Made by a program: the position numbers and the translations under genes | Notes under the pieces: model-generated | What the model was told of the DNA's origin: nothing | The model's database searches: none | Seen by the model: only the letters and a program-made list of their open reading frames with translations | In this document: positions 56,964 through 60,044 of the stretch, in pieces | Layout of the letters: every line of letters begins with the position of its first letter | Position numbering within the stretch: position 1 is the first letter of the stretch | Origin: Sphingomonadales bacterium | GTDB lineage: Bacteria; Bacteroidota; Bacteroidia; Chitinophagales; Chitinophagaceae | DNA length: 64,000 bases | Direction of reading: 5' to 3' | NCBI GenBank assembly: GCA_016872195.1 | Contig: VHAT01000005.1 | Coordinates: 1-64,000 of the forward strand

Positions 56964-58397
56964 CTAGTCTTTCTTATTTCGATCCTGCTCTCTTTTGGTG
57001 AGCGTATTGCCCTCGGGACCACTAATAGTGCCCCGACAATTGTTACTTCCACAACCACAGGTAAAGGGCTCCATGCGAGGGTCCAAGAAGGTCGCATAGT
57101 CTAATGTGAGTTCCTCGTTTGCCATTATGGCCCGTGTCGTGCATACATTCAACCCGTCGAAAACGGTATTGGCATTACAGCTGTGATTTTGTGGAGCCCA
57201 GCTGGCCGGATCTTCGTCCCAAAGGGCAAACACTTCTTCGCTTATTGGATAAGCATAGCGACGAAATCGCAACTGCTGTTCGCTGTTCCAACTCTTATCG
57301 ATATACCGTTTAGTCACCAGCCGTTGTGCGCGCTCTTCGCCGCAGTAGATCACTTCGCCTGCCGCTATGTTTCGGGTGGCATAAATCCCGTAGCCCGATA
57401 TGGAATCTCCTTTTACATAGTAGGGCTTTTGCTTTCGTTGATGGCGCGCAATACCCTCATTGATGATCTGCTCTAAAAAGCCACGCTTGCCCGCAGGGTC
57501 GTAATTAAGTATATAATCGGCCGACCCCTCGTATCCATCCTCATAAAACACAGAGCAGGTTAGGTTCATTTCCAAAAAATAAAGCTCGCCCTTGTTATTA
57601 ACCCGAAAATCGAGCCGCCCATATCCTACACAACCAGCCGTAATAAATATTTTTTTGCTCGCGTCGCGTAGTGCTAGCTCGAGCGCAGGGTCGTTGCAGG
57701 GTATATTCGAAGCGGGGTGAAGCGCCGATGTTTTTAGCGCATAGGTCTTAAATGCATCTCCCTCCGGAAAAATATATTCTACCGGCTTGTAGACAATACA
57801 ATCGCCGGGCTTGCTGTCGGCGGCAACCAATACAGTAAACTCGCGACCCTCAATATACTCTTCGATCAACACGCGATCGAATTCTTCCAAAAGGGATCGA
57901 CATTTATTTTCGAGCGCTTCTTTGTCTACGACCAACGAATCTCTCCCCACACCCAGGCTGTCACCCGCATAGGCTGGCTTAACAAAAAGAGGAAAACGAA
58001 GCGCAGACAACACGGATTCTATTTCAGAAAGGTGGGTAATTGCTCGATATGCTGGGGTAGGAACATCCTCACAATAGGATACATACTTCATCAACTCTTT
58101 GGGAAGATCATATACGCGAGAAGGGGGGCCGGTAAAGGGAAGGTTGAGTGTTTCGAGAGCATAGATCACGTCTACCCCGGGCACCTCCCAATCGGGATAA
58201 CCCTCGCAAAGGTTGACAAAAATATCGTACTGCTTTTTTGATAACGCTCGTAGCTGCTTGTGAGTAGTAAGCTTATTTAAAAAGACGTGGTCTACTTCGG
58301 CACCGGGTAATAGGCGAGCAAGATTCCGGGGTGGATCATAATTCTTATAATCTACTCCCGTTGTCGAATAATCCGGTTGCAACACACACACTCTCAC
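56964..58397 (-). CDS. ATP-grasp ligase fused to a SET methyltransferase domain
   Basis: 477 residues from a GTG at 58395-58397 that shares its G with the TAG of the upstream gene (TAGTG overlap). Residues 1-320 are a D-Ala-D-Ala ligase-like ATP-grasp: VNLCEGYPDWEVPGVDVIYA, FPLFVKPAYAGDSLGVGRD (137-153), LIEEYIEGREFTVLV, GRLDFRVNNKGELYFLEMN (260-278, metal-binding Glu and Asn). Residues 325-460 are a SET domain: GYGIYATRNIAAGEVI, NHSC (404-407), LTLDYATF, and a post-SET CxCx4C (C447, C449, C454). The ligase should join an amine to a carboxylate with ATP; the SET part should methylate Lys or another amine. Substrates unknown. Confidence 0.85.
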   Translation of the reverse strand: MRVCVLQPDYSTTGVDYKNYDPPRNLARLLPGAEVDHVFLNKLTTHKQLRALSKKQYDIFVNLCEGYPDWEVPGVDVIYALETLNLPFTGPPSRVYDLPKELMKYVSYCEDVPTPAYRAITHLSEIESVLSALRFPLFVKPAYAGDSLGVGRDSLVVDKEALENKCRSLLEEFDRVLIEEYIEGREFTVLVAADSKPGDCIVYKPVEYIFPEGDAFKTYALKTSALHPASNIPCNDPALELALRDASKKIFITAGCVGYGRLDFRVNNKGELYFLEMNLTCSVFYEDGYEGSADYILNYDPAGKRGFLEQIINEGIARHQRKQKPYYVKGDSISGYGIYATRNIAAGEVIYCGEERAQRLVTKRYIDKSWNSEQQLRFRRYAYPISEEVFALWDEDPASWAPQNHSCNANTVFDGLNVCTTRAIMANEELTLDYATFLDPRMEPFTCGCGSNNCRGTISGPEGNTLTKREQDRNKKD

Positions 58398-59533
58398 TAT
58401 ACAGCTTTTGCTTTTTTACTTTTGATGGCTTGTGGCATTTCGGCCCGGGTAATGGCATCGAACAAAATAGCTTCAATAACTTTTGAGTAGCTGATCTTGG
58501 ATGCTTTGATGATGGCCCCTATAGAGGTATAGTTTTCGTCTTCGCTAAGTCCGCATTGCGCGTTGGCCTCCAGTACATAGAGCTGGCCAGTATCGCTGTC
58601 TTGTCTAATGTCGATTCGTGTATATCCCCTTCCGCCCAGGGCGGCATACGCCTCGAGGCTTAGTTGTTGCAGTTTTTTTCGGAGTGTGGCGGAAACGGGG
58701 CCATACTCATAAAAATTTTCTTGTTGGGGCATGGGGGCTTCGTCTTCATATATTTCCCAAAGCCGGTCAAAAGAAAGAAAACGTTCTGTGTCGGGTAAAG
58801 ACGGATGAAATAGTCTTTCGACGGGTTCATATACCCTACATCCGGGAAGATGGTTAGAAGACCCGGTTATAAAGGTGGTGAACTCGGGTCCCTTTACGAA
58901 CTTCTCTACAAAAAGACCGTCGGCTAGCAGGTTCCAGCCCCGATATCCTGTTGATAACTCTTTTACGCGTTGGTGTAACTCCTCTTCGCTATTCACCACG
59001 TTTTTTACTGAAACCCCCATGCTTCCGCCCGATACGGCCGGTTTGATGATCATCGGGGTGCCCACCCGCCCACATACCCCTTTTAAAGAAGAGGGGCGCC
59101 CACTGATCAACTTCCAAGGGGCTGTCGATACACCGGCCTTATCAAAAGCCCGCTTCATGGGTATTTTTGAGGTGGTAATATTATAAAAGTGCTGGTCCGA
59201 GCCAGTATAAACCAGCCCATGCTCTTGCAGGGCGTCTATTACCGATACGCCGGGTGCACCATTTATTTCATCTCCATCACAAAGGTTTAGAACAAGGGGT
59301 TGGTGCTTCTTTCCGGTTTTTGCAATACTGGCAATCGTGGTCCTAAAATTTTTCAGGGTTACGGGTGTCCAAGTCCAACCCACGCCTAATTCTGAAAAAA
59401 CAACCTCATACTCTTTTATACTGTGTGTAAAGTCGTAGTAGTGAGAAAGGTTGGGGTCGTTGGTTTCCAGCTCGGGGGCTAAAACCCAAACATGATAAGC
59501 GGAGAGGTCAACGGGGGGGGTGCTGTGCTTCAT
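58397..59533 (-). CDS. ATP-grasp ligase (D-Ala-D-Ala ligase-like)
   Basis: 378 residues. ATP-grasp parts: NLCDGDEINGAPGVSVIDAL (83-102), MIIKPAVSGGSMGVSVK (161-177), FVEKFVKGPEFTTFI, RIDIR (306-310) and VLEANAQCGLSEDENYTS (320-337). It is a paralogue of the ligase part of the next gene (both have the GxPGVxVIxALE-type loop). True Ddl motifs for D-Ala binding (NTIPG) are lacking, so this is not Ddl. It sits between the two SET-encoding genes: 4 bp after the SET gene and overlapping the ATP-grasp-SET gene by one base. A divalent-metal carboxylate-amine ligase of unknown product. Confidence 0.85.
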   Translation of the reverse strand: MKHSTPPVDLSAYHVWVLAPELETNDPNLSHYYDFTHSIKEYEVVFSELGVGWTWTPVTLKNFRTTIASIAKTGKKHQPLVLNLCDGDEINGAPGVSVIDALQEHGLVYTGSDQHFYNITTSKIPMKRAFDKAGVSTAPWKLISGRPSSLKGVCGRVGTPMIIKPAVSGGSMGVSVKNVVNSEEELHQRVKELSTGYRGWNLLADGLFVEKFVKGPEFTTFITGSSNHLPGCRVYEPVERLFHPSLPDTERFLSFDRLWEIYEDEAPMPQQENFYEYGPVSATLRKKLQQLSLEAYAALGGRGYTRIDIRQDSDTGQLYVLEANAQCGLSEDENYTSIGAIIKASKISYSKVIEAILFDAITRAEMPQAIKSKKAKAV

Positions 59534-59537
59534 TCGA

Positions 59538-60044
59538 TCAGGCCACTTTTTTGCGGGCTTTACGGGTAAGGCGCTGTGTGATGTAATCGGTAAACCGATA
59601 CTTTGTTACTTGCTCCCGGTTTAGAAAGGACGCGCCCCTGACCTCGCCAATGCAAGAGGGGGTTCCACAAAAACAGCGAAAGGGTTGTTGCATTTCCCAC
59701 TCGGTGGAGGGATAAAAAAACCCAAGCTCTTCACCTGCGGCAATAGGTGTAAGCGCGACCAACTTCATGGTAGTGGTATCAAAAAAACAATTGGGTTCAC
59801 AACTGTGGTTGATGTACTGCAAATAAGAAGGTTGCAGTGTGATGTGCTTGTTGGTTCCGGTTTGCACAGTCAAATACGTTGGTCTCGAAGAAATACTTCC
59901 TGAACCAAACGAAGCAATTTCTTCTCCTTGTTTGTAGGCGCGTTTTGTAAAAAAACAACGTTGCTGATTAGTCTGATTCAGTCTGGTTTCTGCAAAACCG
60001 TGATCTTCTACCAGCTGGTAGTGTGTTATGAGTTCGGCTGTCAT
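59538..60044 (-). CDS. Stand-alone SET-domain methyltransferase
   Basis: 168 residues, little more than a SET domain. Motifs: RCFFTKRAYKQGEEIASFG at the N-half, QYINHSCEPNC (NHSC at 79-82), PIAAGEELGFFYPSTEW, and post-SET C124, C126, C131 (RCFCGTPSCIG). SET enzymes transfer methyl from SAM to Lys; bacterial ones have few known substrates. It is first in the SET, ATP-grasp, ATP-grasp-SET operon. Near its start the minus strand has TATCTTTC (one mismatch from TAnnTTTG) at 60061-60068, a weak promoter candidate. Confidence 0.85.
   Translation of the reverse strand: MTAELITHYQLVEDHGFAETRLNQTNQQRCFFTKRAYKQGEEIASFGSGSISSRPTYLTVQTGTNKHITLQPSYLQYINHSCEPNCFFDTTTMKLVALTPIAAGEELGFFYPSTEWEMQQPFRCFCGTPSCIGEVRGASFLNREQVTKYRFTDYITQRLTRKARKKVA

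Follow-up and report, generated by a model that had tools for sequence, protein, structure and literature searches.

We analysed a stretch of 64,000 nucleotides (hereafter the window; contig VHAT01000005.1 of assembly GCA_016872195.1) from a bacterium recorded as Sphingomonadales and placed by GTDB in the Chitinophagaceae, and focused on a compact operon of three co-oriented genes. The operon combines two ATP-grasp ligases of the D-Ala-D-Ala ligase (Ddl) fold with two SET domains, and one of its proteins is a fusion of both domain types. Its genes are as follows:

59538-60044, minus strand: gene 1, predicted stand-alone SET-domain methyltransferase, 168 residues (Pfam SET, 45.7 bits)
58397-59533, minus strand: gene 2, predicted stand-alone ATP-grasp ligase of the Ddl fold (hereafter the second ligase), 378 residues (Pfam Dala_Dala_lig_C, 60.8 bits)
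56964-58397, minus strand: gene 3, ATP-grasp-SET fusion, 477 residues, GTG start (Dala_Dala_lig_C, 73.9 bits; SET, 40 bits)

All four domains scored above the curated Pfam cut-offs. Only 4 bp separate the stop codon of the SET gene from the start of the second ligase, and the latter joins the fusion gene at TAGTG, with one base common to stop and start. Both the domain content and this spacing had been proposed in an earlier note on this DNA; they agree with the open reading frames (ORFs), the window sequence and the Pfam search of the ligases that the note had suggested, which returned Dala_Dala_lig_C for both.

Co-occurrence and spread of the three genes

Occurrence of the three genes was assessed in 244 genomes sampled from the larger group of the host's family, using the matches listed in the search tables and leaving weaker ones aside. 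The fusion was present in 74 genomes. All 74 contained the second ligase: in 71 it was among the matches listed (70 on the same contig as the fusion), and in the other three (G090, G593 and G633) it was found by reading the locus. The stand-alone SET protein was detected in 70 of the 74 fusion genomes versus 2 of the 170 genomes without the fusion (Fisher p 1.5e-53, uncorrected for relatedness). In the remaining four fusion genomes the contig ends at the second ligase, inside its gene in three and about 110 bp before its matched part in G577, so that a SET gene could not be seen there. As for the two SET genes without a fusion, the contig of G571 terminates within the adjoining second ligase, and G573, with no ligase in the approximately 830 bp up to the contig end, may be a true exception.

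In seven fusion genomes the SET gene was present and yet unlinked. Six of these genes are located on another contig, flanked on both sides by other genes, and one (G347) is separated by 1.7 Mb within a contig of 3.15 Mb; a further separation, in G626, is an assembly split and was not counted. Retention of the SET gene even when physically apart suggests that the three genes work together. The earlier note had put forward such a joint function and held that homologues scattered with no conserved linkage would speak against it; the comparison of neighbourhoods it proposed revealed instead that SET, second ligase and fusion recur together. That three genes with separate roles became neighbours by chance is hardly credible: the operon is flanked by housekeeping genes in the window and SET is unlinked in the above seven genomes, but the co-occurrence counts in the family, which include these unlinked cases, the domain fusion and the conservation of gene order across phyla all contradict it. 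Among the neighbours of the unlinked SET genes and of the G573 gene, which were unscanned against Pfam, some of housekeeping type are shared by related genomes, and none was recognised as a pathway gene.

Within the host genus, the fusion was detected in 29 of 35 genomes (among them a copy truncated at a contig end and another split across two contigs); the six genomes without it comprise four that are 98-100% complete and two that are 74% and 86% complete. It was found in none of 23 genomes from other families of the same order, and in 17 of 395 genomes sampled from the phylum. A scan of named genomes, based on the best 80 of 571 relatives and with phyla taken from record titles (many records being metagenome bins), identified the fusion in Chitinophagaceae and other Bacteroidota, Gemmatimonadota, the cyanobacterium Brasilonema, Verrucomicrobia, a deltaproteobacterium, Desulfomonile, Chlorobium and Caldilineaceae. 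Matches were also listed for one Acidobacteria and one Planctomycetota bin, which the ORF caller did not resolve. The ORF caller missed the fusion in 4 of 61 loci (L094, L101, L110 and L124) and hid an upstream SET gene in L109.

Among the 57 named loci with a readable ligase domain, 48 had the SET domain; the nine that lacked it were seven from Chloroflexi, one from Rhodothermia and one cut by a contig end. The second ligase was adjacent at 39 loci, and in Brasilonema it was located at 1.8 kb. A separate SET gene occurred within 1.4 kb at 27 loci, a count that rises to 28 when the additional, shorter SET of Chlorobium is included. The presence of close homologues in the same order within the host genus and well outside it implies that the arrangement is not due to chance.

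Ligases of the Ddl fold

In the fusion, a Ddl-fold ligase (approximately residues 1-322) precedes a SET domain that carries post-SET cysteines (approximately residues 330-465); the predicted model of this protein (predicted local distance difference test, pLDDT, 88.8) matched Ddl structures in Foldseek. Both operon ligases share the fold and the ATP/metal core with Ddl (PF07478), but differ from it in missing the NCBIfam cut-off and in having most D-Ala anchors replaced. The best scores with NCBIfam D-Ala-D-Ala ligase models were 83.1 and 90.4 bits, about one third of the cut-off of 243. Residues were examined by aligning 28 fusions and 19 second ligases to the host's own Ddl, with the numbering of E. 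coli DdlB; this and the other alignments (A1-A5) contained 11, 18, 19, 28 and 12 hand-picked rows. Equivalents of R255, D257, E270, N272, E180 and E187 were kept in all 28 fusions and all 19 second ligases, and that of K144 in 27/28 and 19/19. In DdlB, D-Ala is anchored by the triad E15/S150/Y216. At the S150 position, 24 of the 28 fusions have Asp, three Ser and one Ala, and all 19 second ligases have Gly or Ala; at the Y216 position, every fusion has Thr, Trp, Val or Ile and every second ligase Trp or Thr; the E15 column was weakly aligned and S281 was not alignable.

Given that the ATP/metal core is kept and the D-Ala-anchoring residues are mostly replaced, both proteins are predicted ATP-grasp ligases of the Ddl fold with substrates other than D-Ala. 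The earlier note had described the same combination of intact ATP/metal residues and a missing D-Ala-D-Ala signature, and the alignment bears it out. An ordinary Ddl, which by the earlier note would have spoken against a joint pathway, was rejected on the basis of the low NCBIfam scores, the residue replacements and a separate true ddl gene in the host genome. The second ligase also contains an acidic NLCDGDE motif, which, as a guess, might bind a positively charged unit. In public records, these proteins carry the name D-alanine-D-alanine ligase or SET domain-containing protein-lysine N-methyltransferase. The former name is contradicted, and the latter unsupported, by the evidence presented here. 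Homologues number in the thousands: 3645 proteins matched the fusion query at E 1e-10 (not all of them fusions) and 3814 matched the SET query at E 1e-8.

The 155 ligase rows were thinned by locus to 96 for a maximum-likelihood tree, which was rooted at the midpoint (the host Ddl being a long branch) and placed the second ligases (26 rows) and the fusions (45 rows) in well-supported sister clades, as anticipated by the earlier suggestion that the two are paralogues. Outside both clades lay the host Ddl and most of the distant ATP-grasp relatives. The fusion clade contained two branches. The first includes the host lineage, Brasilonema, the deltaproteobacterium, Verrucomicrobia and some Gemmatimonadota, and mostly occurs with the second ligase; the second includes Chlorobium, Caldilineaceae, Longimicrobiales, Anaerolineae and others. 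The deltaproteobacterial and the verrucomicrobial copies group with each other in the fusion clade and again in the second-ligase clade, the pattern to be expected if the two ligases travel together.

Close relatives of the ligase half of the fusion, without a SET domain, were observed in Chloroflexi (L116-L120, L122 and L123); one of them (L117) adjoins sugar genes, a GH4 glycosidase and a galactokinase-type gene. A more distant ATP-grasp relative (L127:1260-5063) is located with NAD synthase, pyruvoyl arginine decarboxylase and GNAT genes.

Kinship of the SET domains

The best match of the stand-alone SET protein among solved structures, by both sequence profile and predicted fold, was BurB (PDB 9l4t and 9l4v; identity about 26%), which is likewise a small stand-alone SET protein. 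A control SET protein that is common in Bacteroidota matched MLL1 and not BurB (one control was run). In the stand-alone family, N79, H80, C82, Y111, C124, C126 and C131 were invariant in 18/18 sequences (alignment A2), and in the fusion, N79-H80-S81-C82, Y109 and C122/C124/C129 were invariant in 12/12 domains (alignment A5). The hallmarks expected of SET methyltransferases, namely an NHSC motif, a motif tyrosine and post-SET cysteines, are thus present, and the earlier observation that NHSC and post-SET cysteines are kept extends to homologues. We conclude that the stand-alone protein is a predicted SET methyltransferase of BurB kinship. This resemblance points to a small-molecule rather than a protein substrate.

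BurB is reported to be a SET-domain methionine S-methyltransferase that acts on free methionine and holds it via main-chain atoms (PMC12542666), so that side chains cannot settle the substrate of the stand-alone SET protein. BurB differs from the operon in belonging to a route to dimethylsulfoniopropionate (DMSP) and malleicyprol, a route without ATP-grasp ligases in the parts of the report read (PMC12542666). In the literature searched, we met no other SET enzyme that acts on a free metabolite.

Proteins are substrates of most studied SET enzymes, and protein-lysine methyltransferase is the near-automatic reading of a SET domain. It could be envisioned that a protein or carrier receives an amino acid from the ligases and that the same protein is methylated by the SET domains, as in a bacterial analogue of TTLL12. 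This eukaryotic protein is reported to have a SET-like domain joined to an ATP-grasp-like TTL domain, and to show neither histone methyltransferase nor tubulin ligase activity (PMC3520985); no other paper was found that has both types of domain in a single protein. The equal closeness of the fusion SET domain to MLL1 and BurB would also suit a protein substrate. However, both operon ligases have the Ddl fold, whose family consists of ligases of free amino acids, and the TTL family of TTLL12 is of the opposite kind. In addition, the stand-alone SET protein sides with BurB, and the loci compared have no recurrent gene for a partner protein or carrier next to the operon. We therefore consider protein modification unlikely.

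No bacterial ATP-grasp-SET system was described in the literature searched, which excluded most subscription papers; one could be mentioned in a comparative survey of ATP-grasp amidoligases (Iyer and others 2009) or in one of chromatin methylation enzymes, both outside that literature. A word search of a review of bacterial SET proteins returned no word starting with "ligase". A third SET-domain gene, above the Pfam cut-off, is present in the host genome outside the window (G000:C7:1215-1508).

A candidate pathway to a methylated peptide

Our favoured reading, which we judge to have about even chances of being correct, is a non-ribosomal three-gene pathway to a methylated di- or tripeptide-like metabolite that is exported in some hosts. 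Its observed part consists of gene order and overlap, co-occurrence, intact catalytic residues, replaced D-Ala anchors and BurB kinship. The two Ddl-fold ligases would likely join amino-acid-like units through acyl-phosphate intermediates, and the two SET domains would likely methylate one building block and the joined product. The stand-alone SET protein may act first, on the thioether sulfur or amine of a free amino acid; the second ligase would couple the unit so methylated; and the fusion would add the next unit and methylate it on the same polypeptide. BacD and MysD are Ddl-type ATP-grasp enzymes of small-peptide and mycosporine pathways, which operate in short gene sets making small amides; we know of no SET methyltransferase in any pathway of this type. 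In the PDB, BacD matched the second ligase only weakly (E 0.006).

Export of the product might take place where an ABC-type membrane gene follows the fusion. An ABC_membrane_3-type (PF13748) protein was found in this position at 14 of the 57 named loci (e.g., L047:9919-10800, L055:9788-10693 and L056:10068-10967), and the one member scanned has no ATPase domain. In Chlorobium-type loci (L051:8348-12612 and L109:6001-9763), the SET and fusion genes are accompanied by an additional gene for a short SET protein and by a complete ABC exporter half-unit. The gene order in Brasilonema (L097:5072-10363) is fusion, SET, FemAB-like acyltransferase and second ligase, with a two-component regulator pair upstream. 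The ABC membrane protein, ABC exporter and FemAB-like neighbours of some hosts fit an exported peptide-like product.

Several observations weigh against this pathway. The absence of the fusion from the four 98-100% complete genomes of the host genus implies that it is dispensable. No second ligase was found in the loci read of fusion branch 2, suggesting that the two successive couplings proposed in the earlier note are not needed everywhere, and none was nearby at two loci of branch 1 (L049 and L095). The K215 equivalent is missing from the second ligase (Leu in 16/19). The SET domain of the fusion showed no preference for BurB (56.4 bits, over its C-terminal half only) over MLL1 (55.3 bits, over nearly the whole domain), and the nearest solved relative is a weak guide, as few bacterial SET structures are solved and a single control was run. 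Finally, a transporter next door is lacking at 43 of the 57 loci, no ABC-type membrane gene adjoins the operon in the window, and the host genome returned no match to the ABC_membrane_3-type protein in a search without a positive control.

Two other fates of a small product were considered. The 43 loci without an adjoining transporter would be consistent with an intracellular protectant, i.e., a zwitterionic methylated dipeptide used as a compatible solute or stress protectant. S-methylmethionine, the product of BurB, is reported to be a step toward the osmoprotectant DMSP (PMC12542666). Moreover, tandem distant relatives of the ligases adjoin GNAT acetyltransferase and lysine-2,3-aminomutase-like genes (L125:5701-9413). 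Such genes also serve in the synthesis of the osmolyte N-acetyl-beta-lysine. Considering the transporter-type genes at 14 loci and the many hosts that are freshwater or soil organisms by record title, with mild salt stress, we find a protectant quite improbable. The Ddl ancestry of both ligases could also indicate a side branch of Ddl chemistry that supplies a modified peptide to peptidoglycan or another surface polymer, and the FemAB-like gene of Brasilonema, of a type named for peptidoglycan work, lies between the fusion-SET pair and the second ligase. However, this annotation comes from a single locus, genes for murein or polymers do not recur adjoining the operon in the loci compared, and near-complete genomes of the host genus are devoid of the operon. 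A cell-envelope precursor is thus improbable.

If the three-gene peptide pathway is correct, methylation of small molecules by SET domains would be widespread among bacteria. More tentatively, the operon could represent a small-peptide pathway of a new class. In it, SET domains, which are chiefly known from histone methyltransferases, would methylate free amino acids and non-ribosomal peptides, and a bifunctional ligase-SET enzyme would link the formation of the bond to its methylation step. The resulting peptide would be permanently charged (sulfonium or quaternary ammonium), and some hosts would export it to serve as a metallophore, signal or antibiotic; we regard this wider proposal as possible but doubtful. 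By record title, occurrence includes Bacteroidota, Gemmatimonadota, Cyanobacteria, Verrucomicrobia, Chlorobi and Chloroflexi. Cultured hosts of the cassette include Lacibacter cauensis (L082) and Chlorobium ferrooxidans, making direct testing possible.

Additional candidate links were examined and set aside. PADLOC gave no match for the three operon proteins, which argues against anti-phage defence. With regard to plasmid carriage, 9 of 72,556 records matched, in the ligase part only, with 27.6-31.0% identity and none covering 80% of the query. A link to N-methyl-bacillithiol in Chlorobium was dropped, as nothing was found joining NmbA with SET. In the window, a DUF2480 gene lies 84 bp from the operon on its 5' side, where a PpiD/SurA-type gene is also located, and a convergent mnmG lies at 31 bp on its 3' side. 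These flanks leave no space for a precursor-peptide gene, and a graspetide or other precursor-peptide system was rejected for this locus, other loci being unsearched for short genes. DUF2480 was discounted as a partner because it adjoins the operon in near relatives only, and upstream GH3, SDR, carbonic anhydrase and cupin genes, annotated at a single locus (L107), were judged unrelated.

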